This document shows, piece after piece, positions 6,216-31,829 of a stretch of DNA of 64,000 nt. Source of the stretch: Paramicrobacterium chengjingii (GTDB taxonomy: Bacteria; Actinomycetota; Actinomycetes; Actinomycetales; Microbacteriaceae). The position numbers were made by a program, and so were the translations under genes. Under the pieces are notes generated by a model. It was given only the letters and a program-made list of their open reading frames with translations, was not told where the DNA came from and searched no databases. The stretch is from positions 3,558,516 through 3,622,515 of the forward strand of contig NZ_CP061169.1 in the NCBI RefSeq assembly GCF_011751765.2. Direction: 5' to 3'. How positions within the stretch are numbered: the stretch's first letter is position 1; each line of letters begins with the position of its first letter.

Positions 6216-6935
6216 CTACGAGCGATCGTTCGCCTCGGCGCGTGTTGCCTCCGCGATTGCTTCGAACCTATTACTCGTAATCGAGTCAACGCCGATAGAA
6301 GCCAAATGTAGAGCGCGAGGCGTTTCATCCACGGTCCAGACTGCCACGTCAACACCCAGTGTGTGAACCTCATCCACAAAGCGTTGACCGACCAACGTAT
6401 GTTTCACGTTTATTGCTGATGGAGACAGGAACGCTATTTCAGACGCCATCGGAGGAGTGGACGAGTGCCATGGCATCCAGACCACGGCCTCCGGCATCAT
6501 TTCACGTATTGTTCGCATAGCGTCGATGTCACCGCACCACGCGGTTGCGACGTTTGACGTTGATGCTTGCACGACCCGAACCGATCCGATCGCTGGCTCC
6601 GCCGAGTCCATGTCTATGAGCAGTGTCGCTCCACCCCCATCAAGCGCAGTCAGAATGTCGCCGAGGAGTGGGATTCGATGCTCCCCTTCAGAGAGCTCTT
6701 GTACCTCAGCAAGTGTCACGTCCGAAACCGCACGGGAGTCACCCCATAACCGATCTAAGGTGGCGTCATGGAGCAACACAGCCGCACCATCCTGAGTGAC
6801 TCGTACATCGACCTCGACCCACGTGGCGCCAACTTCCAAAGCGTCTCGAACCGCCTCCACGGTGTTTTCCCTTGCGTGACCGCCCTCCTCATCATGTAGC
6901 CCACGATGCGCCACTAGCCGTACACCATTGGCCAC
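6216..6935 (-). CDS. Glycerophosphodiester phosphodiesterase (GDPD)
   Basis: 239 residues from GTG 6935, with GGAGGTA 7 nt upstream. GDPD TIM-barrel motifs: LVAHRG (His10-Arg11), ENT (Glu23), EVDVRVTQDG (Glu41, Asp43, metal ligands), LLHDATLDR (His56) and a C-terminal VDVAVWTVD. There is no signal peptide, so it should act in the cytoplasm, cleaving glycerophosphodiesters to glycerol 3-phosphate and an alcohol. It lies 113 bp downstream of a substrate-binding lipoprotein gene on the same strand, which suggests its substrate is imported. Glycerophosphoinositol would fit the inositol context, but that is inference. Confidence 0.88.
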   Translation of the reverse strand: MANGVRLVAHRGLHDEEGGHARENTVEAVRDALEVGATWVEVDVRVTQDGAAVLLHDATLDRLWGDSRAVSDVTLAEVQELSEGEHRIPLLGDILTALDGGGATLLIDMDSAEPAIGSVRVVQASTSNVATAWCGDIDAMRTIREMMPEAVVWMPWHSSTPPMASEIAFLSPSAINVKHTLVGQRFVDEVHTLGVDVAVWTVDETPRALHLASIGVDSITSNRFEAIAEATRAEANDRS

Positions 6936-7048
6936 AGAACTACCTCCTTCCACACGTAGAAACTGCACGACCGAGTTGGTACCAAAAGGACGAAATTTGC
7001 CGTCAACATCGGCGCCTACCGGGGAGCAACGAGAGCCTTCCTGAGGCA

Positions 7049-8245
7049 TCAGGACCTGATGCTTGCCCGCCAGAAGTCTTGCCATTCTTGCAAGTTATCG
7101 AAATCGTCAGCTGCGGTGGCCGAGTCGAAAACAAGAATCTGGTCCCAGACGGACTCAAGATGACTGGGATCATCGGACGGTAGCTTGATAGTGGAATTCG
7201 TCGAGACTTTGCCGTCTTCAGTCTGCGTTCCAATGCCCTCTTCTGTGAACATAAACCGCACGAAGAGCTTGGCCGCATTCGGACTCTCAGTACCGGTGGC
7301 AATAAGCGCGGCCTTCGTATAAGCCCGGCCGGCCCACGGGTCGAGGCCATCGCAAACACCAAGCTTGTATCCGCTGTCAACGTTGGCACGGAACTTTGCT
7401 GTGCTGAAGAACCCGATGAATGGGTCACTCTGCCCGGGAGCACCGACGGACTCCGCGATGTCATCATCGGAGTTGGTTAAGGCTGGCGAATTCATTGCTA
7501 AGCGCTTGACCCACTCAGCAGTAGCGCTGTCTTCTTCCGATTGCAGCTCATCACCGTATTCGTCCGCGTAAGCATCTGCCATCAGATCGTCGCCCTGGCT
7601 CTGCATCTGATTGAACCAATGGGCTTGATCAGTCAACAATGGATCCTGAAGGCTCACTCGGCCCGCCCACTGTTCATCCGTTAGTTGCCAAATATTGTCG
7701 ACAGGGCACACATCACCGTAAACTTCCGTGTTATATGCCCACACGTTCGTTTCTTGCGTAACCACCGCCGGATCCTGGAACTGCTCTTCAACAACATCGG
7801 TCATGTCGGGTGGAAACCACGACGCCGCAAAACCGCGAGGAATCAATTCAGATACAGCGGTAGGAACATCAGGGAGCAATATCACGTCATTCTTGACTGT
7901 GCCGGCAGTGCCCTCTCGGATCACGACCTCCGCCTGCTCTCCAGATTTCATCTTGACACCCGTAGCCTGAACGCCGTATTTCTCGCTAAATGCGCTGGCG
8001 ATATCCACGATCTTTCCCGTCGTATCCAAGACGACGATTGGATCCTCGTTCTTCGCAGCCTCAATAAGGGCCTCGAGGCTGTAGTCGCTGTCGGATATCC
8101 CGAGCTCGGCTTCTCCTCCGTCAGAGCTGTTCCCTGGTGCCGAGGACGGCGCACAGGCGCTGACCGCTAGCGCGACCGCAGCTGTTGCCGTCAACGCCCC
8201 GACGAGACCGGGACTCCGGCGCATCCCTTTTTGCTTATTCTTCAA
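7049..8245 (-). CDS. ABC transporter substrate-binding lipoprotein, paralogue A
   Basis: 398 residues. A TTG start at 8245 is preferred because it gives a basic n-region; ATG 8224 is possible. A lipobox AVSAC puts the lipidated Cys at 31, followed by a Ser/Gly-rich linker. The mature part is an Fe3+/AfuA-type periplasmic-binding fold with LGISDSDYSLE, VLDTTGKIVDIASAF, YGVQATGVKMKSGEQ, PRGFAASWFPPDM, CPVDNIW and TESPNAAKLFVRF. The same blocks occur in three other proteins of this window. The gene precedes the GDPD gene and has its own operator (8322-8333). It is probably served by the permease/ATPase at 17.3-20.3 kb, since no transporter lies beside it. AfuA-type proteins bind sugar phosphates rather than iron; the ligand here is inferred to be a phosphate ester. 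Confidence 0.85.
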   Translation of the reverse strand: MKNKQKGMRRSPGLVGALTATAAVALAVSACAPSSAPGNSSDGGEAELGISDSDYSLEALIEAAKNEDPIVVLDTTGKIVDIASAFSEKYGVQATGVKMKSGEQAEVVIREGTAGTVKNDVILLPDVPTAVSELIPRGFAASWFPPDMTDVVEEQFQDPAVVTQETNVWAYNTEVYGDVCPVDNIWQLTDEQWAGRVSLQDPLLTDQAHWFNQMQSQGDDLMADAYADEYGDELQSEEDSATAEWVKRLAMNSPALTNSDDDIAESVGAPGQSDPFIGFFSTAKFRANVDSGYKLGVCDGLDPWAGRAYTKAALIATGTESPNAAKLFVRFMFTEEGIGTQTEDGKVSTNSTIKLPSDDPSHLESVWDQILVFDSATAADDFDNLQEWQDFWRASIRS

Positions 8246-8321
8246 TGTCGCAATCCAGCCTCGGTGACGGCGGTACTTTTCACCATTTAACGCGTATAGC
8301 TACCGCCAAAATCAAAATAAA

Positions 8322-8340
8322 TTGTCTTGACAATAACACA
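8322..8340 (-). promoter_or_regulatory. Operator of binding-protein A operon
   Basis: TTGTCTTGACAA at 8322-8333 is a near-palindrome with TTGT/ACAA arms. It overlaps TGACAATAACACA (8328-8340), a 13-mer found again exactly at 22022-22034 before the phytase gene, in the same orientation to its gene. It lies 77 bp before the start of binding protein A. Pattern matches the sites at 818, 9765, 22016 and 31806. Confidence 0.6.
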
Positions 8341-8387: not shown

Positions 8388-8831
8388 TCAGTGTGTCTCA
8401 CCCGATGGGGCCCCTGCCTGAACCGGTAAAACATCTGGCACGCTGAGTTCTCCGGTGAGGTACTGAGCCCGACCGTAGCCGAAAGACCAGTCTTGGGGAC
8501 CGTTCTCCATATACCCGAGGAACAGCTCATTGCCTCGAACGCCTACGTCGTCAAGGCGCTGCGCGATTTCGGCGTAGAGCGCCTGCTTGGCAGCATCCGT
8601 TCGGCCAGCCTGAGTAAAGATCTGAATCATCACGACGTCGGTGCTGCGCTCGAACCCGAGGCCAGCGTCTTCGGCGATAATCTGCCTCGGGTGGTGCTCA
8701 GTGATGATTTGGAAGCGATCACGGCGCGGGATGCCGTACTCGGCAACAATTGCGTCATGGATGGCATCAGCGATGGCACAGATCTGCTCCGGGCTGCGAC
8801 CGACATTGACATCGATGCGAACAAGAGGCAT
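8388..8831 (-). CDS. Tautomerase-superfamily protein
   Basis: 147 residues starting MPLVRIDV, so Pro2 would be the catalytic N-terminal proline of the 4-oxalocrotonate tautomerase/MSAD superfamily after Met removal. The segments GRSPEQICAIADAIHDAIV and MIQIFTQAGRTDAAKQALYAEIAQRLDDVGV are the two halves of the beta-alpha-beta repeat of long tautomerases. The substrate is unknown. It lies 26 bp downstream of a metallophosphoesterase gene in the same direction. A role in the keto/enol chemistry of inositol-derived intermediates is conceivable but unsupported. Confidence 0.85.
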   Translation of the reverse strand: MPLVRIDVNVGRSPEQICAIADAIHDAIVAEYGIPRRDRFQIITEHHPRQIIAEDAGLGFERSTDVVMIQIFTQAGRTDAAKQALYAEIAQRLDDVGVRGNELFLGYMENGPQDWSFGYGRAQYLTGELSVPDVLPVQAGAPSGETH

Positions 8832-8857: not shown

Positions 8858-9718
8858 TCACCGCGAAGCTTCTGTCTCTGACTCAAGGTGCTGAAGTTGC
8901 GTGATCGACCGCGTCTCACGGTCGAACTCAAACAACGCAACCCACTCCGGAATGCCCTGCCCATAACGTCCGCGAACAAAGACCGAGACACCGTCGATGC
9001 AGAACTGGTCGGCACGGTGATAGTGGCCATGAAAGCTCGCACTCGGCCTCAGACGCGTCAGCAGCTCACGAACGTTCTCATCCCCAACAAGATCCCGTTT
9101 GTGGACAAACCCGCTGCCGCTTGGCCATTCATGTGTCAGCAGGATATCCACCGATTGCAGTTCCCGCACGGCACGAAGTTCCTCGGCGCAGTAGTAGTTA
9201 TTTTCCTTGATGGAGTTGCAGCTCGTCCGATCAACTGCACTTTCCAGCGCGCGACCGGGCCTTCTGATTCCCGAGAGGAACGCAATGTGAACATCAGCGA
9301 TAGTGACTGATCCGCTTCGGCCCAGAAAGTACACGTCCGGCGCCAACGGGGCACCACCGCGGCTGACACCTTTGTTGCGGTCGAGTGTCGCCCATGGTTC
9401 GTGGTTTCCGCCAATGAAGTACAGGGGAGCGCCGAACTGGATCTGCCCTTCGACCGCAAGATGAAAATCACTCAGACGATGCCTTTCCGGCTTGGCAAAC
9501 ACCTCTTGGAGTTCAGCCACGTCTCTCGTCGCTTCAGCGTCTCCGACTTGAAGAATCGCCTCAACTCGCTGTCCGCTCGGAAGAAATGCTCGCACCAGAT
9601 CCAGCTCACCGGCGAGCTCTTCCCACCGCCCATGAACATCCCCGACGACAACGAAGAAGACTTTTTGGCTCGATTCCTGAACACCGTCCGTCGGCTGAAG
9701 AGATGTTTCCCGACTCAT
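8858..9718 (-). CDS. Calcineurin-like metallophosphoesterase
   Basis: 286 residues from ATG 9718, preceded by GAGAGGG. The full set of dinuclear-metal motifs is present: GDVHG (Asp27, His29), QVGD (Asp60), GGNHE (Asn105, His106), LTHEWP (His196) and GHYH (His232, His234). There is no signal peptide, so it should act in the cytoplasm on a phosphomonoester or diester. It is the first gene of an operon with the tautomerase, divergent from mgtC - binding protein B. The shared promoter region carries an operator-like site. Substrate unknown; the region suggests a phosphorylated inositol or related ester. Confidence 0.85.
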   Translation of the reverse strand: MSRETSLQPTDGVQESSQKVFFVVVGDVHGRWEELAGELDLVRAFLPSGQRVEAILQVGDAEATRDVAELQEVFAKPERHRLSDFHLAVEGQIQFGAPLYFIGGNHEPWATLDRNKGVSRGGAPLAPDVYFLGRSGSVTIADVHIAFLSGIRRPGRALESAVDRTSCNSIKENNYYCAEELRAVRELQSVDILLTHEWPSGSGFVHKRDLVGDENVRELLTRLRPSASFHGHYHRADQFCIDGVSVFVRGRYGQGIPEWVALFEFDRETRSITQLQHLESETEASR

Positions 9719-9764
9719 GTCACCCTCTCGTTCCAAGTAAACATCGACGCTCATTCCGCATCGC

Positions 9765-9776
9765 ATGTAAAGACAT
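9765..9776 (+). promoter_or_regulatory. Operator-like site in divergent promoter region
   Basis: ATGTAAAGACAT (reverse strand ATGTCTTTACAT) lies between the metallophosphoesterase and mgtC starts. It keeps the WTGTC-N4-ACAW pattern of the sites at 818, 8322, 22016 and 31806, so both divergent operons may belong to the same regulon. Confidence 0.5.
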
Positions 9777-9825: not shown

Positions 9826-10611
9826 ATGTCCTTACATTTAATCGTACATGAGGCGTTACTTCCGCTAATGCCCCCCACGGAGCTGGAGGTGGGAATTCGC
9901 ATAGCCTTCAGCCTCGCGATGGGAGCGTGCGTCGGGCTGGAACGTCAGTGGCGTGCGGGGCTTGCCGGGCTTCGCACCAACGCACTCGTTTCTGTTGGCG
10001 CCGCACTGTTCGTTGTGATGGGGGCTTACGGGTTCACACCAGATGGCAGCGCAGATCCTACCCGTGTGGCCGCGCAGGTGGTTTCCGGAATCGGGTTCCT
10101 CGGCGCCGGTGTAATGATTCGCGAAGGACTCAACATCCGCGGGCTGAATACGGCCGCAACACTCTGGTGTTCCGCAGCTATAGGCTGTCTTGCTGGAACC
10201 GGCATGTACGTCATCACCCTGATCGGGACCGCCGTCATTGTCGCGGCCAACACGCTGCTGCGCCCTCTTGGCCGCGCGGTGAACCGCAAGACTGGTCGAC
10301 TCCCTCTCCCGACTGCGTCGCCGTTGGGAGCAGATTTCGCGTTCGAAGTCATGACAAGCGATAAGGCCGAACCCCGTGTTCGTGCGTTGCTGTTGCAGAC
10401 TCTCAGCCGGCCAGAGTATCGGCTGAAGTCGGTCACTGCGTCGCACAACAAGCAGGGGAACTCCGTTGCGCTCCTCGCAGAGATCCATTCCACCGATCCT
10501 GATGCGTCGCCCCTCGAAAGGGCAGTGAGCAGAATGACGTTGGATCCAAAAGTCAGCTCTGCTCGCTGGTGGCCCGACGAGGAAGAAGGGAACGAAGAGG
10601 ACGAGTTTTAA
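9826..10611 (+). CDS. MgtC/SapB-family membrane protein
   Basis: 261 residues. The N-terminal ~155 residues carry four to five membrane helices with the family motifs GACVGLERQWRAGLAGLRTNALVSVGAALF and VVSGIGFLGAGVMIREG...GLNTAATLW. The C-terminal ~90 residues form a soluble ACT-like domain (AEPRVRALLLQTL...EYRLKSVTAS). MgtC proteins act under magnesium or phosphate limitation and influence membrane ATPase activity; they are not magnesium pumps. ATG 9826 has no clear ribosome site, so a leaderless transcript or the ATG at 9868 is possible. It lies 71 bp before binding protein B, probably in one operon. Confidence 0.87.
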   Translation: MSLHLIVHEALLPLMPPTELEVGIRIAFSLAMGACVGLERQWRAGLAGLRTNALVSVGAALFVVMGAYGFTPDGSADPTRVAAQVVSGIGFLGAGVMIREGLNIRGLNTAATLWCSAAIGCLAGTGMYVITLIGTAVIVAANTLLRPLGRAVNRKTGRLPLPTASPLGADFAFEVMTSDKAEPRVRALLLQTLSRPEYRLKSVTASHNKQGNSVALLAEIHSTDPDASPLERAVSRMTLDPKVSSARWWPDEEEGNEEDEF

Positions 10612-10682: not shown

Positions 10683-11870
10683 ATGCTAAGTGCACATTCA
10701 CGTACGATTTTGCGACACAGGCGTAAGGCCGCGCTACCGATGCTCGTAGCAGCATCATTCATGCTTGTTGCTTGTTCCCCGTCATCGACTCCCAGTGCGT
10801 CCGAATCGGCGGACCTGGGTATCTCCGACGAAGACTATTCGCTGGATTCACTCATTGATGCGGCGAAAGAGGAAGGCCCGATCACTGTCTACGATGTGAC
10901 GGGAAAGATCGTTGACACCGCCAAAAACTTTTCGGAAAAGTACGGCATCAAAGCGACCGGCGTGAAGGCCAAAGCAAATGAGCAACAGGAAATCCTGATT
11001 CGCGAAGCCCAAGGCGGGAATGTCAAGAGCGATGTCTTTTTCATGACGGACGCTCCTACGGTGAGTGCTCAGATACTGCCCGAAGGAATGGCCACGAGCT
11101 GGTTTCCGCCCGACCTCGCGGACGTCGTTCCTGAAGAGTTCCAAAATCCCGTCTCGGTCTCAACCGAAGTCGACGCGTGGAGTTATAACACGGAGGAGTA
11201 CGGGGACACGTGTCCGATTGACAACGTCTGGGCGCTGACCACGGATGACTGGCACGGCAAAGTCGCTCTGTCCGACCCACTGCTACGGTCTGACTTTCTC
11301 TACTGGGTCAACCAGATGCAGGCACACGCAGACGACCAACTGGCATCAGCGTATGAGGAGTTCTTTGGCAAAGCGCTGGACACCTCCGACGAAAGCGCCG
11401 CCGAGCAGTGGCTTAAGGCTCTCGCCGCGAACCAGCCAATCATCAAGAAGTCAGGTGGCGATGTTGCCGAGACAATTGGCGCATCCGGCCAAAGCGATCC
11501 TCCCGTCGGGATGGTGAGCACCGCAGAGTACCGGACTAACGTTGATTCCGGGTTTCACTTGGGTCTTTGTGAAGGCATCTCACCATGGCTTGGACGCTCG
11601 TACACGAAAGTCGCCGTCATCGCTAATGGAACCGCAAGCCCGAACGCTGCCAAACTCTTCGTCCACTACCTCCTGACTCAAGAGGGCATCGAGCCGCAAC
11701 TCGTCGATGGCAAATTCTCGACGAACTCGACAGTAGCTCCCTCCCCTGACGAACCGTCAGGAGTCGCCGATTTTCAAGACGCAGTCTTCGCCCCGGACCC
11801 TTCGACAGCCGCAGACGACTTCGATTCGCTTCCGGAGTGGCAGGACCTGTGGACAATCAACTCACACTGA
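10683..11870 (+). CDS. ABC transporter substrate-binding lipoprotein, paralogue B
   Basis: 395 residues from ATG 10683 (AAGGGAG upstream). Signal peptide with lipobox MLVAC (Cys31). It shares with paralogues A, C and D the blocks LGISDEDYSLDSLIDAAKEEGPI, VTGKIVDTAKNFSEKYGIKATGVKAKANEQ, TSWFPPDLADVVPEEFQ, GDTCPIDNVW, YWVNQMQ, and the C-terminal TASPNAAKLFVHYLL and FSTNSTV. It is encoded with MgtC and has no permease of its own. It ends before a strong hairpin terminator. Presumed to deliver a phosphorylated ligand to the shared ABC permease (inference from AfuA-type relatives and neighbours). Confidence 0.85.
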   Translation: MLSAHSRTILRHRRKAALPMLVAASFMLVACSPSSTPSASESADLGISDEDYSLDSLIDAAKEEGPITVYDVTGKIVDTAKNFSEKYGIKATGVKAKANEQQEILIREAQGGNVKSDVFFMTDAPTVSAQILPEGMATSWFPPDLADVVPEEFQNPVSVSTEVDAWSYNTEEYGDTCPIDNVWALTTDDWHGKVALSDPLLRSDFLYWVNQMQAHADDQLASAYEEFFGKALDTSDESAAEQWLKALAANQPIIKKSGGDVAETIGASGQSDPPVGMVSTAEYRTNVDSGFHLGLCEGISPWLGRSYTKVAVIANGTASPNAAKLFVHYLLTQEGIEPQLVDGKFSTNSTVAPSPDEPSGVADFQDAVFAPDPSTAADDFDSLPEWQDLWTINSH

Positions 11871-12191: not shown

Positions 12192-12225
12192 ATTCCCCAG
12201 GAGACAAAGCACGTCTCCTGGGGAT
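12192..12225 (-). terminator. Intrinsic terminator of the phosphatase/transport operon
   Basis: Inverted repeat TCCCCAGGAGAC - 7 nt - GTCTCCTGGGGA (12-bp stem) just after the stop of the inositol-monophosphatase-family gene at 12238, followed on the minus strand by AATTCTCGTTG. Confidence 0.75.
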
Positions 12226-12237: not shown

Positions 12238-13104
12238 CTATCCGCGAGCGGCGATGTCACGCGCAATCGCCATCAGCTTCGGGTACCTGCCATCTCCAGC
12301 GGTGGCCACATAGCCTTTATGGAGATAGCGGGCGTCGAGCCTCTCGCTCTGCCCGACGGGCAGAGGAACGTAGGTTCCTCCGGCCTGGCGAACGATGAGA
12401 TCAGCAGCGCATATGTCCCACGGGTTCACGTTGAATCCAGCTGCGGCATCCGCCCAGCCTGCCGCGACGTGCGCGAGCGTGAGTGCAGCACTTCCCGGGC
12501 GACGAAGTGCTCTGAAGGCGAGCACGAGCTGTGCGAAGTCGCCAAGCGCAGGCGCGCCATGAGCCTCGAGCTGCCGGGCGTTGGGGTATCCGGTGATGAG
12601 AGTGGCCTCGCCTTCAGTCGGCGCTCCGACGGAATGCAGCGTTTCACCATTCAGCCATGCTCCGTCCAGATCAGCGGAAAAAAGGTCGTCAGCCATCGGG
12701 TCGAGGATTGCGCCGGCGACAACCTCACCATCAATCGCTGCAGCGACGGAGATACACCAGAATGCAATCCCATCGACGAAATTGCTCGTCCCATCAATCG
12801 GATCGACGAACCACGACACTCTCCCCTCCCCCACAGAACCACCTTCTTCTCCGAGGAGGCGCGAGTCAGGTACGTGTTCGAAGATGTAGGTCGAGATGGT
12901 CGCTTCCGCGCGCTTGTCGTGTTCGGTCACGACGTCCCGGGCGTCACGCTTGTGCCCAATTGACATCGACGTGCGAAAGGCCGCTCTCAGTTGCTCTTGG
13001 ACGGCGCGCGCCGCCCCTTCCGCGACGCCTCGAAGTCGTTGCGATTCGCCTCTCTGCTCAGGTGTCGGACGAGTCCTGGGTGCCTGCGTAGCCTCGGTGT
13101 TCAT
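12238..13104 (-). CDS. Inositol monophosphatase family protein (second copy)
   Basis: 288 residues. IMPase motifs: GEEGG (Glu86-Glu87), DPIDGTSNF (Asp101, Asp104; Mg2+ ligands) and NPWDICAAD (Trp229-Asp230). The family removes phosphate from inositol monophosphates, fructose 1,6-bisphosphate, PAP or histidinol phosphate. The neighbouring phytase, transporter and iol genes favour an inositol phosphate here. Its ATG overlaps the TGA of the HAD gene (13101-13104), so it is the last gene of the leftward operon before a terminator. It is about half identical by eye to the enzyme at 13989-14837 (similar RAAFR...KRDA core), indicating duplication. Confidence 0.88.
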   Translation of the reverse strand: MNTEATQAPRTRPTPEQRGESQRLRGVAEGAARAVQEQLRAAFRTSMSIGHKRDARDVVTEHDKRAEATISTYIFEHVPDSRLLGEEGGSVGEGRVSWFVDPIDGTSNFVDGIAFWCISVAAAIDGEVVAGAILDPMADDLFSADLDGAWLNGETLHSVGAPTEGEATLITGYPNARQLEAHGAPALGDFAQLVLAFRALRRPGSAALTLAHVAAGWADAAAGFNVNPWDICAADLIVRQAGGTYVPLPVGQSERLDARYLHKGYVATAGDGRYPKLMAIARDIAARG

Positions 13105-13892
13105 GCGACCTCGCGGTTCGTTGCTTTTTCGAGGAGGTCAAGCAACCCCCATGGGTCAGCGACGATTGCATCGGCAGTCACCGGGAGATCGTAGGGAAGA
13201 TCGTACGTGCTGCGCGCCTCCATCAGAATATTGCCCCCGACGCGAGCGCGAGCGCCACACAGGACGTCACGGTCAAAGTTGTCCCCGACATACCAGCACT
13301 GCTCCGCCGTCAAGGCAACCGCTTGGGCACCTCGGTGAATCATCTCTGGGTTGGGCTTCCGAACCCGGACCTCGTCGCTGTAGATCTGCTCTGCGAACCG
13401 CTCCGTGAGACCGACCTGGTCAAGATAGTCACGGTGCACAACTCCCATAAGCGTGTTACTCACGATCACGACCGGGATTCCCGAGCCCTCGGCAGCATCA
13501 AGCACTTCGATAAACCCTTCACGCGTTTTTCGCTCTTGCTTGATCTCTCCCATCACTCGACACAGCTCACGTGCATTTCTCCCGACAAAGTCACGCGGGG
13601 GGGCAGGCCAATCACCGGCGACAAAGTCGACCCAGAACTGTTCGTATCGCAGCTCGGTCGGTGCAAATGGCCGAGACATGGCGTCTTTCCACTTCGAGTC
13701 GGCCTTTCCGCCAGCTCGAATGTCGCGCTCGATATCCTCCAGTGTCAGTCCGTTGAGGCTAACGCCTGCACTGGAAAACTCATCTAGAACGTGCTCCGCC
13801 ATTCGCCGCTGCCAATTGGGTCGATTACGGGTTTCCACAATGACACCGCCGAAATCAACCAGAAGTGCCTGTGGCCTGATTAGCCCGCTCAT
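13101..13892 (-). CDS. HAD-superfamily hydrolase (phosphatase-like)
   Basis: 263 residues from ATG 13892, with AAGGAG 6 nt upstream; 28 extra upstream in-frame residues lack a better start. HAD motif I is LLVDFGGVIVE (nucleophile Asp13), motif II VVIVSNT, motif III around VRVRKPNPEMIH (Lys), and motif IV WYVGDNFDRDVLCG. Motif I has Gly rather than Asp at the +2 position, a variant known in some HAD-IA members and one that may lower classical phosphatase acid/base catalysis. It sits between two inositol-monophosphatase-family genes, with an ATGA overlap to the downstream one. A role in dephosphorylating imported inositol phosphates is inferred. Confidence 0.82.
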   Translation of the reverse strand: MSGLIRPQALLVDFGGVIVETRNRPNWQRRMAEHVLDEFSSAGVSLNGLTLEDIERDIRAGGKADSKWKDAMSRPFAPTELRYEQFWVDFVAGDWPAPPRDFVGRNARELCRVMGEIKQERKTREGFIEVLDAAEGSGIPVVIVSNTLMGVVHRDYLDQVGLTERFAEQIYSDEVRVRKPNPEMIHRGAQAVALTAEQCWYVGDNFDRDVLCGARARVGGNILMEARSTYDLPYDLPVTADAIVADPWGLLDLLEKATNREVA

Positions 13893-13988
13893 GTCTTTCT
13901 CCTTATTAGTCATTCTTCCGTTCTCTGTCCGAAACAACGGCTCTTTAGAATCCCCGGGCGACGCAGGCTGCGCCATACCACGGGAAGG

Positions 13989-24471: not shown

Positions 24472-25380
24472 TCAGTCGAGACGGGCGGCCGACGTCGACG
24501 AGAGTAGATGCTCGCGCGTGCGCTGGGCGATAGGAAGCGGGTGGTCGACGGCGCAGCCGTACATGTCTTGCTCCACGATGCCGAAGATGTTCGGGTCGAG
24601 CGCAGCAACCTTCTCGATGATCGGCGCGAGCGGCGGCACACCGTTTGGCGGCTCAATCATGATGCCGTCGGCCACGGCGTCTTTAAACGACACGTCATTC
24701 TTGAGCACGTCGAACAGTTGCGTCTGGTCCACCTGCTTGAGGTGAAGGTAACCGATGCGCGACGGATACGCGTCGATGAGCGCGAGGTTGTCTCCCCCGT
24801 AGTACGCGAAGTGTCCCGTGTCGAGGCACAGGTTCGTATAGTGCTCGTCGGTCTCAGTGAGAAAGCGCTCCACTTCGCGATACGTGCCAATGTGGCTGTC
24901 GGCGTGCGAGTGGAACTGCTGCTTCATTCCGAACTCCTCAAGCAGCGCCTTGCCGAGACGATCGTGTGCCGCGGCGAGCTTTGCCCACTGATCGGCGTCG
25001 AGCGTGCGTGGTTCGAGTGCCTCGCCCGTTGCGTCACTGCGCCAGAGGTCGGGGATCACCACGAGGTGCTCTGCCCCCAGCTTCGACGCGAGTCCTGCGA
25101 CGGCGAGCGCCTGATCCCATGCGCGCTTCCACTGGTCGTCTCCCTTGTGAAAACCGGTGAACACGGTGCCGGCCGAGAGCTTCAACCCGCGCTTTCCAAG
25201 TTCGTCCTGCAGCCGGTTCGGATCGGTGGGAAGGTACCCGTACGGCCCCAGCTCGATCCAGATGTAACCCGCTTCGACAACCTCGTCTAAAAACCGCTCC
25301 CACGGCACTTGATTCGGGTCGTCGGGAAACCACACACCCCACGAGTCGGGGGCGGTGCCGATGCGAATTCCGTTCGACAT
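24472..25380 (-). CDS. iolE: Inosose dehydratase (IolE-type TIM barrel)
   Basis: 302 residues. Starts IRIGTAPDSWGVWFPDDP, the IolE hallmark. The xylose-isomerase-like TIM barrel carries FHSHADSHIGTY, LCLDTGHFAYYGG and YLHLKQVD (metal-binding His/Asp/Glu residues), and ends with EQDMYG. It dehydrates scyllo-inosose to 3D-trihydroxycyclohexane-1,2-dione, which the next enzyme, IolD, hydrolyses. It is in the same operon, 54 bp after iolD. Confidence 0.93.
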   Translation of the reverse strand: MSNGIRIGTAPDSWGVWFPDDPNQVPWERFLDEVVEAGYIWIELGPYGYLPTDPNRLQDELGKRGLKLSAGTVFTGFHKGDDQWKRAWDQALAVAGLASKLGAEHLVVIPDLWRSDATGEALEPRTLDADQWAKLAAAHDRLGKALLEEFGMKQQFHSHADSHIGTYREVERFLTETDEHYTNLCLDTGHFAYYGGDNLALIDAYPSRIGYLHLKQVDQTQLFDVLKNDVSFKDAVADGIMIEPPNGVPPLAPIIEKVAALDPNIFGIVEQDMYGCAVDHPLPIAQRTREHLLSSTSAARLD

Positions 25381-25434: not shown

Positions 25435-27351
25435 TCAGCCGAGCAGCGGCCTTTGCCGCGCCTTCTGCGTTTGGTAGTCCGTGTACGCGTTCCGGGTGGA
25501 CTCAAGCTCGGCGACGGGCGCGACGGGAACGTCCCACCAGACCTCGCCGTCCGGTGCGTAGAGCAGCGGATCGCTGTTAATGTGGATCACGGTTGAGGTG
25601 TCCGACGCCTTTGCCGTGGCGATCGCCTCCGAGAGGTCATCAATCGCGGATGCTGTCTGCTCGACCTCGATCACGTCGACCCCGTAGCTTCGCGCATTCG
25701 CCGCGAGATCGATCGGCAGAGTCTGCTCGCCCTGGAAGTTGCGTGCTCGCTCGTCGAGGGTGCGGTATTGGGTGCCGAACCGGGCGGACCCGGTGGTCTC
25801 CGACAGGTGCCCGATCGACGCGTACCCGTGATTCTGCACGATGATCACGATGATCTTGAGTCCCTCGGCGACGGCGGTGACGAGCTCGGTGTGAAGCATG
25901 AGGTACGACCCGTCGCCCACCATGACAATGACGTCGCGGTCGTTCTCACCCGCGGCATCCGCTCCCCTGCGCACGCCGAGGCCGCCCGCGATCTCGTAGC
26001 CCATGCATGAGAACGCGTACTCGACGTGGTAGCCGAGGGCGTCTCTCACTCGCCACAGCTTGTGCAGGTCTCCCGGAAGTGAACCGGCGGCCTGCACGAT
26101 AACGTCGCGCGGGTCGCTCGCGCCCTGCACCGCTCCGATGATCTCTGACTGGCCGGGCAGCGCGAGGCCGCTCGGCTCGAACGCGGCATCAACCGAGGCA
26201 TCCCATGTCTGCTTTTCGGATGCCGCTCGCGCGGCGAACTCGGACGGCACCGCGTAGTCGTCGAGCAGCTCGCGCAGGCTGCGCAGAGCCTCCGCAGCAT
26301 CCGCGATCACGGGCAGCTGGCTGCCGTGCTTGTAGGCGTCGAACGAGGTGATGTTGATGTTCACGAACGTCACATCGGGGTTCTGAAACACGGTGCGGCT
26401 CGCCGTCGTGAAGTCGCTGTAGCGCGTGCCGATGCCGATCACCACGTCGGCGTCTGCCGCGAGGCGGTTCGCCGCCGTGGTGCCGGTCGAGCCGATTCCG
26501 CCGAGGTAATTAGCGTGGTCCCACGGCAGCACTCCCCCACCGGCCTGCGACGTGCCGACGGGAATGCCCGAGTGCTCGACAAAGTCGCGCAGGTCATTCT
26601 CGGCTCCCGAGTAGAGCACGCCTCCCCCGGCAACGATGATCGGTGCCTTCGCCTCTCGAATCGCCGCCGCGGCGCGCTCGATGGGCCCCCGCTCGGGCAG
26701 CGGTCTGCGAATGTGCCATTCGCGGTCAGCGAGAAACTCGTCGGGCACGTCGAGCACCTCGGCCTGCACGTCCTCGGGAAGTGCGATCGTGACGGCGCCG
26801 GTTTCGGCCGGGTCGGTGAGCACGCGCATCGCCGCGAGCGCGATGGAGAAGAGCTGCTCTGGCCTGTCGACGCGGTCGAAGAACTTCGACAGCGGCTTGA
26901 ACGCGTCGGTCACCTGCACCGATGTGTCGTGCGGCATCTCAAGTTGCTGCAGCACCGGGTCGGCGACCCGTGTGGCGAACGTGTCGCTGGGCAACAGCAG
27001 AGCGGGCAGCCGGTTCGCCGTGGCAAGAGCAGCGCCGGTGAGCATGTTGGCAGCACCAGGCCCAACCGATGCTGCGCACGCAAACGTGCCGCGGCGCCGG
27101 TGCATGCGCGCGTAGCCGACGGCCTGATGCACCATCGCCTGCTCGTTGCGCGCCTGGTGGTAGGGAAGCAGATCGGGTTCACGAGCGTTCGCCTGCGCGA
27201 TCGCCTGCCCGAGTCCGGCGACGTTGCCGTGACCGAAGATGCCGAAGATTCCCGGGATGGTGCGCTCGCGCACGTCGCCGTCAACTGTCCACTGGTGGCC
27301 GAGAAACCCAACGAGAGCCTGGCCCACCGTCATTTGCCGTGACATCGTCAC
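25435..27351 (-). CDS. iolD: 3D-(3,5/4)-trihydroxycyclohexane-1,2-dione acylhydrolase
   Basis: 638 residues. Thiamine-diphosphate enzyme: N-terminal PYR domain (QALVGFLGHQWTVDG...GIFGIFGHGNVAGLGQAI), central domain with GGGVLYSGAEN, and C-terminal PP domain with MGYEIAGGLGVRRG and VGDGSYLMLHTEL (GDG...N-type cofactor motif, followed by QNHGYASIG). It opens the cyclohexanedione ring to 5-deoxy-D-glucuronate. The GTG at 27351 overlaps the iolB stop (GTGA); ATG 27345 is an alternative with better ribosome-site spacing. Confidence 0.94.
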   Translation of the reverse strand: MTMSRQMTVGQALVGFLGHQWTVDGDVRERTIPGIFGIFGHGNVAGLGQAIAQANAREPDLLPYHQARNEQAMVHQAVGYARMHRRRGTFACAASVGPGAANMLTGAALATANRLPALLLPSDTFATRVADPVLQQLEMPHDTSVQVTDAFKPLSKFFDRVDRPEQLFSIALAAMRVLTDPAETGAVTIALPEDVQAEVLDVPDEFLADREWHIRRPLPERGPIERAAAAIREAKAPIIVAGGGVLYSGAENDLRDFVEHSGIPVGTSQAGGGVLPWDHANYLGGIGSTGTTAANRLAADADVVIGIGTRYSDFTTASRTVFQNPDVTFVNINITSFDAYKHGSQLPVIADAAEALRSLRELLDDYAVPSEFAARAASEKQTWDASVDAAFEPSGLALPGQSEIIGAVQGASDPRDVIVQAAGSLPGDLHKLWRVRDALGYHVEYAFSCMGYEIAGGLGVRRGADAAGENDRDVIVMVGDGSYLMLHTELVTAVAEGLKIIVIIVQNHGYASIGHLSETTGSARFGTQYRTLDERARNFQGEQTLPIDLAANARSYGVDVIEVEQTASAIDDLSEAIATAKASDTSTVIHINSDPLLYAPDGEVWWDVPVAPVAELESTRNAYTDYQTQKARQRPLLG

Positions 27352-28277
27352 TGCCCTTCTGATTCGCGATACGGGAGCCGGGAGTCAAACTCCTGCCCTT
27401 CCCAGCTGGAGCGCACCCACCCGTGCGCGGGGTCGTCTGTGATGTTCCATACCCGCTCAGTGTCGGGCCCGGCCATGACGTTGAGGTAGTACATGTCGTA
27501 TCCGGGAGCGGCAGCCGCCGGCCCGTGGTACCCATACGGAACGAGCGCGATGTCGCCGGTGCGCACAATAGCGTTGATGTCGATGTCGCCCGCGTTCGAC
27601 GAGTACGTCGCGAAGAGTCCGAACGGGTCAGCCTCGGGCGGCGCCGCGAGCCCACGGGAGACTGCCGTCTCGAAGTAGTAGATCTCCTCGAGCCGCGACT
27701 CGGTGCCCGGCACGTTCGTGTCGTGCTTGTGTGCGGGGAACGACGACCAGTTCTCGGCGGGTGTGATCACCTCGCACACGATGAACTTCGATGCAGCGAG
27801 CGCTGCTGGCGTTCCGTAGTTGTGCACCTGCCGACTCGATCGCCCGGCACCACGCAGCTCGACGGGAACATCCGCCTTCGAAATGTACGTGACCGGATGC
27901 GGCTCGGCAGCAAGCTTCTCAGAAACCGGCGCCTCGGCAACGGCAACGCGGCCTGTGCCTGTCACCGTCGCCGATGCGCCGACCGGCAGGTAGAGAACGT
28001 CGGGCGGCCCGTCGAACACCGATCGGCGGCCGCCAAGCTTTACGGCGTTCGTCTCGACAGCATCCGTTCGTGTACCTGTCGTGTATTCCACGTGAAACGA
28101 TCCGGCCAGCGGAATCACGAGCCGCTCGATGTCTCCCGACTCCAGCGGCGCGCTGTCTCCATCGGCGAGCTGCGCAATGCGCAGTCCCGTGTGCCGCCAG
28201 CCCTCAAGGCTCGCATCCACGACGCTCTGCCAACCGTCGCGGGCGAGTTCGCCGTTGCGGAAGAACCACTGCGTCAT
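27348..28277 (-). CDS. iolB: 5-deoxy-glucuronate isomerase
   Basis: 309 residues from ATG 28277, with AAAGGAG upstream. The KduI/IolB bicupin fold shows CEVITPAENWSSFPAHKHD (metal-binding His residues), EEIYYFETAVSRG and ALVPYGYHGPAAAAPGYDMYYLNVMAGP. It converts 5-deoxy-D-glucuronate to 2-deoxy-5-keto-D-gluconate, the substrate of IolC. It overlaps iolD by 4 bp and follows mmsA by 69 bp. Confidence 0.95.
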   Translation of the reverse strand: MTQWFFRNGELARDGWQSVVDASLEGWRHTGLRIAQLADGDSAPLESGDIERLVIPLAGSFHVEYTTGTRTDAVETNAVKLGGRRSVFDGPPDVLYLPVGASATVTGTGRVAVAEAPVSEKLAAEPHPVTYISKADVPVELRGAGRSSRQVHNYGTPAALAASKFIVCEVITPAENWSSFPAHKHDTNVPGTESRLEEIYYFETAVSRGLAAPPEADPFGLFATYSSNAGDIDINAIVRTGDIALVPYGYHGPAAAAPGYDMYYLNVMAGPDTERVWNITDDPAHGWVRSSWEGQEFDSRLPYRESEGQ

Positions 28278-28346: not shown

Positions 28347-29858
28347 CTAGTCGTTTTCGGGGAAGCCGAGGTTGATGCCGCCGTGGGTCGCGGGATCGAG
28401 CCAGCGCGAGGTGATCGCTTTCTCCTGGGTGAAGAAATCGAACCCGTGCACACCATAGGCTTTGGAGCTGCCGAACAGTGACTGCTTCCACCCGCCGAAC
28501 GAGTGATACGCCACCGGCACCGGGATCGGAACATTGATGCCGATCATGCCCACCTGCACCTCGTTCTGAAACCGCCGTGCCGCACCCCCGTCATTAGTGA
28601 AGATCGCCGTGCCATTACCGAACTGTCCCGAGTTGATCAGATCCATTCCCTCCTGGAACGTGCCCACCCGAACAATCGAGAGCACCGGCCCGAAGATCTC
28701 CTCGTCATACGCCTTCGAGGTCAACGGGATATTGTCGATCAGCGTCGGACCCAACCAGAACCCATCCTCGGCACCATCCACAGTGAACCCGCGCCCGTCA
28801 ACAACAATGTCGGCACCGTCCTGCTCAGCAATATCAATGTAGCTGGCCACCTTGTCCCGGTGCGCCGCCGTGACAAGCGGCCCCATGTCGGGATTCTCCC
28901 GCCCATCACCGACCTTCAGCTTCGCCATGCGGTCCGTGATCTTCTCGATCAGCTGATCGGCAACCGGCTCCACAGCAATCACCACAGACTGCGCCATGCA
29001 CCGCTCACCCGCCGACCCGAACCCCGAATTGATCGCCTGATCCGCCACCAACTCCAGGTCAGCATCCGGCAACACAAGCATGTGGTTATTCGCCCCACCC
29101 AACGCCTGCACCCGCTTGCCATGCTTCGCCGCAGTCTCGTAAATGTACTGCGCAATCGGCGTCGACCCCACAAACGAAATCGAACGCACCTCCGCAGCCT
29201 CCAGCAGACCATCCACAGCCTGCTTATCACCCTGCAACACATTGAACACACCAGCAGGCAGCCCAGCCTCAGCCCACAGCCGCGCCATCCACAAAGCCGC
29301 AGACGGATCCTTCTCACTCGGCTTCAACACCACAGTGTTCCCCGCAGCGATCGCGATCGGGAAAAACCACAACGGCACCATCGCCGGAAAATTAAACGGA
29401 CTGATAATCCCCACAACACCCAACGGCTGCTTAATCGAATACACATCAACACCCGTCGACACGTTCTCCGAAAACTCACCCTTAATCAGATGCGGAAACC
29501 CACACGCCAGATCCACAACCTCCAAACCACGCTGAATCTCACCCGCAGCATCAGAGACAACCTTCCCATGCTCACTCGTGATGATCTCCGCCAACTCCAC
29601 CTTGCGCTCATTCAACAACTCACGAAACCGGAAAACAATGCCCTGACGCTTCGCCATCGACAAATCACGCCACCCCGGAAAAGCCCCAGACGCCGCCGTG
29701 ACCGCCGCACGAATCTCACCATCACCCGCCAACGCAAGACTCTTCGTCTGCTGCCCAGTAGCCGGATTAAACACCGCAGACACACGCCCACCAGACGACG
29801 CAAACTCCACACCCCCAATCCAATGCGAAACAACAGGAAGATCAGTAGTGGTGGTCAT
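28347..29858 (-). CDS. iolA: Methylmalonate/malonate-semialdehyde dehydrogenase (CoA-acylating)
   Basis: 503 residues from ATG 29858, with AAGGAGAAG upstream. Aldehyde dehydrogenase fold with ISPFNFPAMVPLWFFPIAIAAGN, LGGANNHMLVLPDAD, GSAGERCMAQSVVIA (catalytic Cys) and the MMSDH-type end YGVHGFDFFTQEKAITSRW. It oxidises malonate semialdehyde from the Iol pathway to acetyl-CoA and CO2. Base usage in most of the gene (about 28500-29860) differs from its neighbours: many GTG/GCG/GGT and ATT/TTT codons, and an unusually long open antisense frame, suggesting replacement by recombination. Confidence 0.95.
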   Translation of the reverse strand: MTTTTDLPVVSHWIGGVEFASSGGRVSAVFNPATGQQTKSLALAGDGEIRAAVTAASGAFPGWRDLSMAKRQGIVFRFRELLNERKVELAEIITSEHGKVVSDAAGEIQRGLEVVDLACGFPHLIKGEFSENVSTGVDVYSIKQPLGVVGIISPFNFPAMVPLWFFPIAIAAGNTVVLKPSEKDPSAALWMARLWAEAGLPAGVFNVLQGDKQAVDGLLEAAEVRSISFVGSTPIAQYIYETAAKHGKRVQALGGANNHMLVLPDADLELVADQAINSGFGSAGERCMAQSVVIAVEPVADQLIEKITDRMAKLKVGDGRENPDMGPLVTAAHRDKVASYIDIAEQDGADIVVDGRGFTVDGAEDGFWLGPTLIDNIPLTSKAYDEEIFGPVLSIVRVGTFQEGMDLINSGQFGNGTAIFTNDGGAARRFQNEVQVGMIGINVPIPVPVAYHSFGGWKQSLFGSSKAYGVHGFDFFTQEKAITSRWLDPATHGGINLGFPEND

Positions 29859-29879
29859 GTGCTTCTCCTTTGACAAGTC

Positions 29880-30800
29880 TTAGTGTGTGCTCGTGTGCAC
29901 GAGCGCTGCTGCTGTATCGACGGCGCGGGCAACATCGCCGTCTGGCGGGTAGACAAGGGTGCGCCCGACGACGAGCCCGCGCACTCCGGGGAGCGTGAGG
30001 GCGTCGGCCCAGCGCGCGTAGGTCCCGTCGGGGCTTCCCGAGGGGTCGCCGCCGAGCAGAAGTGTCGGCAGCGTCGTCGACGCCATCACCCGCTCCATGT
30101 CGTCGACGACGGGCAGCTTCAGCCAGGTGTATGCGGAACTCGTTCCGAGCCCCTGGGCAATGGCTACGCTCGTGATGACGGCAGCCGTCGACAGGTCATT
30201 CACAACGGATCCGCCGGTCCAATCGCTCATGAACGGCTCGACCATAATGGGAACGGATGCTGCCGCGGCATCCGACACCGCCTGCGCATTCGCCTCGAGG
30301 GTTCGCGCCGAGCCGGCGTCGTCGAGATTCACGCGCAGAAGCGTCTTGGCAAAGTCGAGTCTGTCGCGAACGATCGAATTGATGTCGTAGGCGGTGACGC
30401 GATCGTCCATTTCGAACGCAGCGCCCTTGAGTCCTCCGCGGTTCATGGAGCCGACGACCACTTTGTCATCGAGAACACCGAGAAGGGCGAGGTCATCGAT
30501 AATGTCGGGAGTACCGAGCACACCGTCGACGCCCGGGCGACTGACGGCGAGCGCCAGACGATTCAGCAGGTCGTAGCGGTCGGCCATGGCCATGGGTTCG
30601 CCGCGCACCCCGAGCGCTCCGCGTGCCGGGTGATCGGCGGCCACAATGAACAGGCGACCGTCGGTCAGCAGCGGACGACGCGTGCGTGCCGCGTGCGCTG
30701 CCGCCACCTTTTCTGGGTGGAACGCGCGCGTCTCGCGCAGCTGGTGGAATTGCTGGGGCGTGATCATCGGCTCTGCGGTCACGGTGTCAGTTGCCGACAT
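29880..30800 (-). CDS. Cgl0159-family (beta/alpha)8 aldolase-like protein of the iol operon
   Basis: 306 residues from ATG 30800, with AAGGAGAGC upstream. A TIM-barrel aldolase-like protein with LFIVAADHPARGALG, GVLGTPDIIDDLALLG, VPIMVEPFMSDW and LPTLLLGGDPSG...VVGRTLVYP. Homologues sit beside iolC in actinobacterial iol clusters and probably supply the aldolase step, in which 6-phospho-5-dehydro-2-deoxygluconate is split to dihydroxyacetone phosphate and malonate semialdehyde. No separate iolJ is seen in the window, which agrees. It overlaps the iolC stop by 14 bp. Confidence 0.85.
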   Translation of the reverse strand: MSATDTVTAEPMITPQQFHQLRETRAFHPEKVAAAHAARTRRPLLTDGRLFIVAADHPARGALGVRGEPMAMADRYDLLNRLALAVSRPGVDGVLGTPDIIDDLALLGVLDDKVVVGSMNRGGLKGAAFEMDDRVTAYDINSIVRDRLDFAKTLLRVNLDDAGSARTLEANAQAVSDAAAASVPIMVEPFMSDWTGGSVVNDLSTAAVITSVAIAQGLGTSSAYTWLKLPVVDDMERVMASTTLPTLLLGGDPSGSPDGTYARWADALTLPGVRGLVVGRTLVYPPDGDVARAVDTAAALVHTSTH

Positions 30801-31755
30801 AGTCGCTCTCCTTCAGCACCTCATCGATTTCATGTGTCTCCGGCATCGCCGTTGAGCATTCGCGGCGCGACGCGACGATCGCACCCGCAACGTTGGCGAA
30901 GCGAAGTGTGCGCTCGAGCGACCACCCGCTCAGCAGCCCGTAGTTCAGCGCTCCCCCGAAGCTGTCGCCGGCGCCGAGGCCGTTGACGACGTCGACGAAG
31001 TACGGCGGCACCTCAACGCTCTCGTCCCGCGTCTTGGCGAGCACGCCCTTCGGCCCCTGTTTGACGATGGCAATCTCGACCCCTCGATCGAGCAACGCAT
31101 CGGCTGCGCGCTGCGGGTCGGTCTCTCCCACGGCGACTTCGCACTCTTCGCGATTGCCGACAGCGACGGTCACGTGCGCAAGGGCCTTCTGCACATGTTC
31201 GCGGGCAATCTCGGCCGATTCCCAGAACATGGGGCGGTAGTCGAGGTCGAGAACCGTGTGCTCGCGGCGGCCTCGAGCATCCCAGGCGGCAAAGTGCGAG
31301 CTGCGACTGGGTTCCTCTGACAGACCGGTCACCGTCGACCAGTAGATGCGGGCGTTGCGGATCGCGTCGATGTCGAGGTTCTCCTCCCTGATGTTCAGGT
31401 CGGGAGCCTGTGGCTTGCGATAGAAGTAGAGCGGAAAGTCGTCTGGCGGGAAGATCTCGCAGAATGTGACAGGCGTCGGGTTCTCCTCATCGACGAAGAT
31501 GTATCGGTTGTCAACGCCGAGCCTTCCCGCTTCGCGAATGCAGAATCGGCCGAAGGGGTCATTCCCCACCCCCGTGACAACGGCGGTGCGCAACCCGTGA
31601 CGGGCCGCGGCCACGGCCACGTTTGTGGCGCTTCCGCCAAGGTACTTGCCAAACGTCTCGACGTCCTCAAGGCCCACGCCGTCCTGGAGTGGGTAGATGT
31701 CTGTGCCGATTCGACCGATGGTAATGAGGTCGAATGCTTCGTTCTGCATTGTCAT
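30787..31755 (-). CDS. iolC: 5-dehydro-2-deoxygluconokinase
   Basis: 322 residues, PfkB/ribokinase fold. N-terminal signature GKYLGGSATNVAVAAARHG, C-terminal signature VVNGLGAGDSFGGALNYGLL, whose DxxG-type Asp is the catalytic base. It starts FDLITIGRIGTDIYPLQDG, typical of IolC. It phosphorylates 2-deoxy-5-keto-D-gluconate, the last carbohydrate step before aldol cleavage. It is the first gene of the iol operon, preceded by a sigma-A-like promoter with an embedded operator (31800-31829). An ATG six bases downstream (31749) is an alternative start. Confidence 0.94.
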   Translation of the reverse strand: MTMQNEAFDLITIGRIGTDIYPLQDGVGLEDVETFGKYLGGSATNVAVAAARHGLRTAVVTGVGNDPFGRFCIREAGRLGVDNRYIFVDEENPTPVTFCEIFPPDDFPLYFYRKPQAPDLNIREENLDIDAIRNARIYWSTVTGLSEEPSRSSHFAAWDARGRREHTVLDLDYRPMFWESAEIAREHVQKALAHVTVAVGNREECEVAVGETDPQRAADALLDRGVEIAIVKQGPKGVLAKTRDESVEVPPYFVDVVNGLGAGDSFGGALNYGLLSGWSLERTLRFANVAGAIVASRRECSTAMPETHEIDEVLKESDYVGN

Positions 31756-31799
31756 ACGTCGATGTATCGCTCTCTCGTGAAGTGCTCAAGCTTGCTTAC

Positions 31800-31829
31800 A
31801 TCCTATTGTCTTAACAAATGAATCGTCAA
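31800..31829 (-). promoter_or_regulatory. iol operon promoter with operator between -35 and -10
   Basis: Minus strand: -35 TTGACG (31824-31829), 18-bp spacer, -10 TAGGAT (31800-31805). The near-palindrome TTGTTAAGACAA (31806-31817) fills the spacer next to the -10, a position where a bound regulator would block RNA polymerase. It shares WTGTC-N4-ACAW with four other sites of the window. Confidence 0.7.

Follow-up and report, generated by a model that had tools for sequence, protein, structure and literature searches.

The window analysed here is the final 64 kb of the complete 3.62-Mb genome of Paramicrobacterium chengjingii, a soil actinobacterium of the Microbacteriaceae. It contains an island (positions 6216-31829) in which the genes for a MINPP-type phytase, an ATP-binding cassette (ABC) importer with several substrate-binding proteins (SBPs) and IMPase-family enzymes adjoin a complete iol operon. 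Our analysis, which is one of sequences, indicates that the island probably serves phytate-to-inositol assimilation, in which phosphorylated inositol is imported and used via iol; we assign this reading a probability of about 0.78. An earlier note on this DNA had proposed that partly dephosphorylated inositol phosphates are imported. This proposal is supported by the recurrence of the gene set, by a motif shared with iol and by the differing transporters in relatives. Furthermore, the families that had been named in the island were all confirmed at their place by family scans of the window proteins.

In the mechanism that we propose, MINPP on the cell surface would strip phosphates from the plant storage compound phytate or from other inositol polyphosphates, and the binding lipoproteins would catch the products that are still phosphorylated, of which inositol mono- to trisphosphates are the likeliest. 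The phosphorylated ring would enter the cell through an ABC importer of the AfuABC class with a fused permease; there, cytosolic IMPases, helped by a HAD hydrolase and a calcineurin-like metallophosphoesterase (MPE), would remove the remaining phosphates. The freed inositol would be degraded by the adjoining iol operon. The iol and import genes would be switched together by a repressor, probably IolR-like, that recognises an operator of the TTGTYARGACAW type. What the sequences show is the gene content, its linkage and recurrence, the distribution of the motif and the lack of orthologues of the transporters that two relatives have at this locus; the ligand, its phosphorylation state, the direction of flow, the cellular locations and the regulator are the parts of this scheme that we infer. 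The presence of more than one SBP and more than one phosphatase would suit a substrate mixture of different isomers and phosphorylation states. BlMINPP, the surface phytase of Bifidobacterium longum, yields InsP3 intermediates and no visible InsP2, while InsP1 is not resolvable from phosphate, according to the accessible part of the study (PMC7762957). That it is the mono- to trisphosphates which are imported is therefore a guess.

The iol operon runs on the minus strand from iolC (31755) to a gene for a GFO/IDH dehydrogenase (22217). A distance of 272 bp separates its end from a second series of eight minus-strand genes (12238-21944) in the order MINPP, fused permease, ATPase, SBP_a, SBP_b, IMP1, HAD and IMP2. 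The genes of this series are separated by 80 bp or less, or overlap, and from MINPP to IMP2 they look like one operon. The plus strand carries SBP_c and MgtC; MPE, a tautomerase, SBP_d and GDPD are on the minus strand.

The first gene of the second operon (20505-21944, minus strand) encodes a lipoprotein with a match to PF00328 (His_Phos_2; 9.5e-15), the only PF00328 protein found in the window genome. Its best solved relatives are BlMINPP (6rxd, E 1.3e-84) and 7zgf (1.6e-83). It contains the RHGSR nucleophile motif and the HAE proton-donor triplet, which correspond to the MINPP motifs RHGxR and HAE as defined in the accessible part of PMC7762957. The protein is thus placed as MINPP, a predicted phytate-hydrolysing phytase; its N-terminus is lipobox-like (VMLAGC). 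The nearest named relative (91%) is from Microbacterium sp. MPKO10. A search of relatives found MINPP in 2 of 59 genomes, with the own genome counted. Among 80 named MINPP loci, 13 of which span less than 20 kb, one has transporter or iol neighbours within the available flanks, namely the sister locus of MPKO10 (L002). The other neighbours at these loci are generic (ABC ATPases with 24-46% and aldehyde dehydrogenases with 27-28% identity). Because this linkage occurs only in the sister, MINPP was rejected as an anchor for conservation and the transporter was used instead. Other lineages of the transporter have AppA/PhyK-type phytases, or none was found.

The component set of AfuABC, an SBP, a fused two-domain permease and an ATPase, is all present in the window. 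The permease (18485-20425, minus strand) is AfuB/PhnU2-like; it has two PF00528 stretches and scores 140.8 bits with TIGR03262, below the cut-off. The ATPase (17346-18482, minus) has a TOBE domain and is closest to UgpC and PhnT2-like models, also below their cut-offs. The binding lipoproteins SBP_a (16153-17349, minus), SBP_b (14902-16143, minus; 52-53% identical to SBP_a) and SBP_c (10683-11870, plus; 88% in the sister) all match PF13531. SBP_d (7049-8245, minus) is accessory and absent from the sister. The earlier description of four related binding lipoproteins is borne out: they are 51-73% identical, and their N-termini, read by eye, are lipobox-like. The sister genome, G003, carries a second SBP_b. 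Relatives of SBP_a (E up to 1e-20) occur in 10 of 299 Microbacteriaceae genomes, including the own one, and in 143 plasmid records, mostly rhizobial. A phylum-wide search with the permease gave 2 of 396 genomes, again including the own one; the other holds a 33% relative.

A predicted model of SBP_a (pLDDT 96) matched the folds of MctA, HitA, VcA0625 and AfuA. In profile searches SBP_a matched VcA0625/AfuA with E of about 2e-7 and about 20% identity. In AfuA the sugar is coordinated by His-Asp and Glu. The His-Asp site lies outside the profile alignment; the presumed matching segment of the SBPs reads STAKFRE or STAEYRT, the correspondence not being established.

The two IMPase-family genes IMP1 (13989 to about 14840, minus strand; PF00459, 1.1e-46) and IMP2 (12238-13104, minus; PF00459, 2.1e-50) enclose the gene for the HAD hydrolase (13101-13976, minus; PF00702), of which 47-48% identical relatives stand beside the transporter in two other genomes. 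IMP1, found as an open reading frame (ORF) of 361 amino acids, probably starts at its internal ATG. Both IMPases score above the PF00459 cut-off and contain the DPIDGT metal site; the nearest NCBIfam model is HisN, with a score far below its cut-off. IMP2 is 56% identical to the transporter-linked IMPase of Microvirga. In a tree of 21 rows, the IMPases that are linked to the transporter or to a phytase group in two clades, with support values of 96/92 and 95/97. The window genome has four IMPase-family genes, two of them in the island; the other two fall apart from both clades, on long branches. The IMPase from the phyK locus of Klebsiella pneumoniae groups in the same tree among the transporter-linked enzymes.

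The claim that a complete iol operon lies next to the transporter genes was confirmed: iolA, B, C, D, E and G are all present, and the models for iolD, iolB and methylmalonate-semialdehyde dehydrogenase exceed the NCBIfam cut-offs. In order on the minus strand, the genes encode an iolC-like PfkB kinase (30787-31755; PF00294, by Pfam scan only), a Cgl0159-type aldolase (29880-30800; PF22649) that would take the role of iolJ, iolA of the methylmalonate-semialdehyde dehydrogenase family (28347-29876; TIGR01722, above cut-off), iolB (27348-28277; TIGR04378, above cut-off), iolD (25435-27351; TIGR04377, 817 bits, above cut-off), iolE (24472-25380; TIGR04379, 128 bits, below cut-off), an iolG-like inositol dehydrogenase (23417-24436; below NCBIfam cut-offs) and, as the last gene of the operon, the GFO/IDH/MocA dehydrogenase (22217-23407; 82-86% in genus relatives). 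iolD is above the cut-off in four of five genomes of the genus.

The same locus was compared in two genus members without MINPP, G004 and G001. Their flanks are conserved, one consisting of AsnC and the tautomerase (plus DDAH in G004) and the other of iol, Ppx and DnaJ, and the interval between is filled with different genes. That of G004 includes a sugar porter, a CUT2 ABC importer, LacI, GFO dehydrogenases and TIM-barrel proteins; the SBP of the CUT2 importer resembles rhizopine-binding proteins, below the cut-off. In G001 the interval holds an SBP_bac_1-type binding protein. Neither the window genome nor G003 has an orthologue of the G004 porter (best 31-34%), of the G004 CUT2 SBP (best 27-31%) or of the G001 binding protein (best 27-30%), and G001 is likewise devoid of orthologues of the G004 sugar porter and CUT2 SBP. 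These transporters at the iol locus of G004 and G001 would carry free inositol. MgtC was not found at this place in either relative. Ppx/GppA, the tautomerase and AsnC (DDAH in G004) were dropped as members of the system, since they flank iol in the relatives that have no island.

The recurrence of the transporter was analysed in a permease tree of 34 rows from 33 loci: 13 actinobacterial, 18 from plasmids (SBP search) and 2 (L155, L156) from a phytase search. Twenty plasmid records had been hand-picked for reading from the 143. Two loci were excluded before counting, L133 of S. meliloti ml59, which is the same locus as L102, and the truncated-looking L132 of Agrobacterium, which had no permease match. 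The rows are related and hand-picked, so the counts are not independent trials. In the permease clade that holds the window, an IMPase is present at 18 of 24 loci, or at 17 of 23 without the locus that was found via its phytase. The IMPase-bearing loci are those of the window, G003, G313b, G017b, G212, G121, S. meliloti, Sinorhizobium B11, Devosia, Microvirga, Shinella, Thioclava, two Klebsiella plasmids, S. chiapasense, E. canadensis, E. adhaerens and Sinorhizobium RAC02; G313, G121 and G017 share one genus label (Leucobacter-like). In the sister permease clade an IMPase occurs at 0 of 8 loci. Two distant AfuB-like rows, the second system of Shinella and that of Roseomonas, both come with an IMPase. 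The recurrence of the gene group that the earlier note would lead one to expect was found, also beyond the actinobacteria: transporter and IMPase recur together, and the link to MINPP is limited to the window and its sister.

Several side observations came from the same loci. The loci of the sister clade (L157-L161, L167-L169) have an RpiR-type regulator in 8 of 8 cases and a small histidine phosphatase in 7 of 8, the eighth contig being short; a Na/Pi carrier is present at one of them. From its sequence context, this clade may be another uncharacterised importer of the organophosphate type. The Shinella plasmid locus L129 has two different AfuABC-type systems and two IMPases in tandem. A rhizobial subclade (L105, L107, L128, L166) is without IMPase; two of its four loci have phnD and a two-component system annotated next to them, and one lies near phnA and a transaminase for 2-aminoethylphosphonate. 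It is possible that this subclade imports phosphonates.

Phytase-like genes accompany the transporter in three settings: MINPP in the window and its sister, PhyK-like in Klebsiella plasmids and AppA-like in Roseomonas. The Klebsiella plasmids carry genes for a KdgM-type porin, a PhyK-like phytase (2wnh, E 8.5e-82), permease, ATPase, SBP, an IMPase that is fused to a dual-specificity-phosphatase-like part, and a LacI-type regulator. This phytase occurs at 93% or more on four plasmids, two of which were read; megablast did not find the cassette in E. coli genomes. On the Roseomonas plasmid iolC, RpiR and iolG adjoin an AfuA-like SBP, a permease, an ATPase, an IMPase and a His_Phos_2 protein. The SBP (4r72, E 2.4e-88) aligns with AfuA in an HD and in the PCEG segment, and the transporter is a distant AfuABC-type one; the nearest model of the His_Phos_2 protein is AppA, below the cut-off. 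In K. pneumoniae (a chromosome-size record) and K. aerogenes (L152, L153) a PhyK-type gene stands with LacI, an IMPase and a GlpT/UhpC-like carrier of the major facilitator superfamily (MFS), which is annotated in three pieces in K. aerogenes. Here a secondary carrier seems to provide a parallel solution. Of the phytase-type plasmid matches (35 records) five were read, and four of these have an IMPase and a carrier nearby; that of Azospirillum has not. Genes for inositol use were found near the transporter in two further genomes. In G313 the transporter and IMPase are about 11 kb away from a complete iol operon (59-82% identity), and a sugar porter lies in the gap; in G121 iolC lies about 30 kb from the permease, and a 41% iolD paralogue is closer.

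The promoters were searched for a common operator. The site TTGTTAAGACAA (31806-31817, minus strand) lies between the promoter-like hexamers of iolC and is identical in four genus members, the window genome and three others. TTGTCAAGACAA (8322-8333, minus) precedes SBP_d. The operator-like sites TTGTCATTACAT (22016-22027, minus), before MINPP, and ATGTAAAGACAT (9765-9776, plus), between MPE and MgtC, are both kept in the sister. A broad motif, WTGTNAWKACAW, was built from the island sites and one G004 site; the window contains 5 matches to it, at 4 places, versus 0.21 expected. The genome as a whole has 7 distinct places, of which 4 are at island promoters, two within ORFs and one at the 5' end of an ORF; the share at island promoters is partly circular, given how the motif was built, and the control with the backward pattern gave 2 matches. 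Four other genomes with the transporter have 10 distinct places in all. Four of these precede permeases (G313, G017 and two in G212), one precedes the G313 porter and five lie elsewhere, including the sole one of G121.

A fairer test used the motif TTGTYARGACAW, which was derived only from iolC of this genus, G212 and G121 and from the sugar porter that follows iol in G313; it was itself chosen post hoc, after all sites had been seen. The site at SBP_d has 0 mismatches to this motif, those at MINPP and between MPE and MgtC have 2. Nine exact sites occur in 476 kb of sequence surrounding these loci, taken from 26 sources. The motif is defined by four of them; the remaining ones are at SBP_d, at three permease promoters and, in G001, before a DeoR-type regulator. 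In G313, G017 and G212 the site precedes the permease ORF, or its aligned start, by 29-83 bp. With up to one mismatch there are 17 sites versus 2 in the reversed sequence. The sequence KGWCHTRACA, which we take to be the IolR consensus of C. glutamicum (the string was not found in the literature searched), has 3 matches in the window versus 2.1 expected, i.e. no enrichment. A search for PHO boxes (up to 3 mismatches) gave 8 matches versus 6.3 expected; one of these is before MINPP and was not seen, by eye, in the sister sequence. IolR of C. glutamicum is a repressor of iolT1 that is released by inositol, according to the accessible part of PMC8634428. The suggestion that inositol phosphates serve as both carbon and phosphate source is favoured for carbon by the iol-type operator; use of the phosphate is possible, without regulatory support. 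As a side observation, two palindromic or near-palindromic TGTCATGACA sites (G212:C7:406117 and 409857; L193) surround ORFs that by eye resemble a sugar-type ABC importer.

A broader reading, to which we give even odds, spans several phyla. In it, the gene set would be an exchangeable cassette for the use of phytate as carbon, consisting of a surface phytase that yields lower inositol phosphates, a dedicated organophosphate importer and cytosolic IMPases under inositol control, with phosphate as waste; in this genus the cassette would have replaced sugar-type transporters at the iol locus. Na/Pi-PhoU carriers are found in the rhizobial and Martelella clusters, and together with MgtC in the window they suggest a disposal of surplus phosphate. 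If the reading is true, these carriers and MgtC would be explained as phosphate relief, and an AfuABC-like importer, or a GlpT-like one in Klebsiella, would capture the phosphorylated ring before competitors use free inositol.

Several results weigh against phytate-to-inositol assimilation. Phytase-like genes are present at only 5 of the 33 transporter loci, and the Roseomonas plasmid and one Klebsiella plasmid were found via the phytase. As 79 of the 80 named MINPP loci show no transporter or iol neighbour within the available flanks, generic matches aside, and MINPP and transporter are linked in 2 genomes only, MINPP alone does not carry the argument. Six of the 24 loci in the window's permease clade are without IMPase: two Leucobacter-like ones with HAD only, and four rhizobial ones, two of them beside phnD. 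The two-mismatch distance of the MINPP and MgtC/MPE sites is measured against a motif that was picked post hoc. No TTGTYARGACAW site with up to one mismatch was found at 3 of the 6 permease promoters of other genera (G121 and the two HAD-type loci), nor at the iolC promoter of G313. Two unlinked sugar porters (33-34%) in the window genome could carry free inositol. Finally, the SBP model matches binders of iron, metal-citrate and sugar-phosphate alike in fold, and the fold search names no ligand; the assignment of the ligand therefore rests on genomic context.

The same data were weighed for other ligands. It is unlikely that the island is a general scavenger of sugar phosphates or organophosphates, which imports hexose phosphates for promiscuous phosphatases and has iol as a mere neighbour. 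IMPase-family enzymes can be promiscuous, and those of the island are nearest to HisN among the NCBIfam models, far below its cut-off. The best solved relatives of the SBP profile are the glucose-6-phosphate binders VcA0625 and AfuA, and AfuABC carries glucose-6-phosphate according to the accessible part of PMC4546632. Against a scavenger stand the repeated pairing with IMPase clades, phytase-like genes and iol, and the motif shared with iol promoters; also, the SBP segment STAKFRE has no HD pair of the kind AfuA uses for hexose, with the caveat that the residue correspondence is not established. Use of glycerophosphoinositol, imported from lipid breakdown and split by a cytosolic GDPD, is suggested by the fact that GDPD is accompanied by a binding protein of its own, SBP_d, whose gene follows an iol-type operator. 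Neither GDPD nor SBP_d (6216-8245) occurs in the sister, where the rest is kept, and MINPP and PhyK-type enzymes act on phosphomonoesters; as the main function of the island this use is very unlikely. In this strain it may be an additional branch. Their absence from the sister marks GDPD and the fourth SBP, which had been counted with the island, as accessory and strain-specific.

Import of ferric iron or metal-citrate, with a coincidental association of phosphatases, agrees with the database names and with MctA and HitA among the top fold matches. An adjacent pair of tyrosines, presumably the mark of FbpA-type ferric binding, is found in 0 of the 4 window SBPs, and YY occurs anywhere in 3 of 51 rows of the family alignment. 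This, and the phosphatase partners at most loci read, make iron import extremely unlikely. We hold import of phosphonate (2-aminoethylphosphonate) to be just as improbable: the permease and ATPase are best or second best on the PhnU2/PhnT2 models and two loci of the rhizobial subclade lie beside phnD, one of them also near phnA, but these scores are far below the cut-offs, the island genes scanned include no gene of phosphonate catabolism, and the rhizobial phnD subclade has no IMPase.

Phytate-to-inositol assimilation, if it is the function of the island, would combine parts of known systems. AfuABC of Actinobacillus and Citrobacter rodentium is a set of SBP, permease and ATPase that is annotated for Fe3+ and carries a phosphorylated ring (PMC4546632, accessible part), and the window has a set of this kind; in contrast to AfuABC, the window SBPs are remote and multiple, and their partners are a phytase, IMPases and iol. 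The word inositol is absent from the main text of that paper as far as it was accessible. The P5PAB importer for pyridoxal phosphate likewise uses an AfuA-related SBP for a phosphorylated ring (accessible part of PMC8427247) and differs in ligand and neighbours. The two papers (PMC4546632 and PMC8427247, accessible parts) show that phosphorylated rings can be the cargo of 'iron' SBPs from this class. The window MINPP shares RHGxR and HAE and a predicted membrane anchor with BlMINPP, its closest solved structure, but it stands in an operon with an importer and IMPases. The iol operon has iolA, B, C, D, E and G in common with those of Bacillus and Corynebacterium, whereas the window locus has no recognisable transporter for free inositol and is adjoined by an organophosphate-type importer. 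The phyK locus of Klebsiella (LacI, IMPase, GlpT/UhpC-like MFS, PhyK) also joins a phytase, an organophosphate-type carrier and an IMPase, but with a secondary carrier instead of an ABC importer; the accessible parts of the literature do not describe it as a pathway. The statement that no described system links all these parts agrees with our search: in the open literature searched, with preprints and most subscription papers outside it, we found no account of an import of inositol phosphates that is coupled to IMPase and iol. A dedicated uptake of the phosphorylated ring, if true, would change who benefits from phytate, since the inositol would not be shared. It would also mean that a set of 'iron' transporters, that of S. 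meliloti pSymB included, has to be re-annotated. The reading yields ligands and operators that are directly testable.

The remaining features of the interval are as follows. MgtC, a membrane protein of the MgtC/SapB type (9826-10611, plus strand; PF02308), is 97% identical in the sister, and MPE (8858-9766, minus; PF00149) is 73% identical there. GDPD (6216-7085, minus; PF03009) has its true start probably at an internal position. The tautomerase (8388-8831) also lies inside the interval; like MgtC it had not been mentioned before. A terminator-like 13-bp stem (12194-12224, minus) is located 3' of IMP2, the number of such sites in the region not being above chance. An Rfam scan of window positions 1-40000 gave zero matches at gathering scores. 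Ppx/GppA begins at 31894 and likewise flanks iol in the two relatives that have no island. On the other side, genes for ornithine cyclodeaminase and a DDAH-like protein lie beside the AsnC regulator (3801-5768) and are conserved in G004. A Stealth-family protein is encoded outside the island, at 37031-38740.

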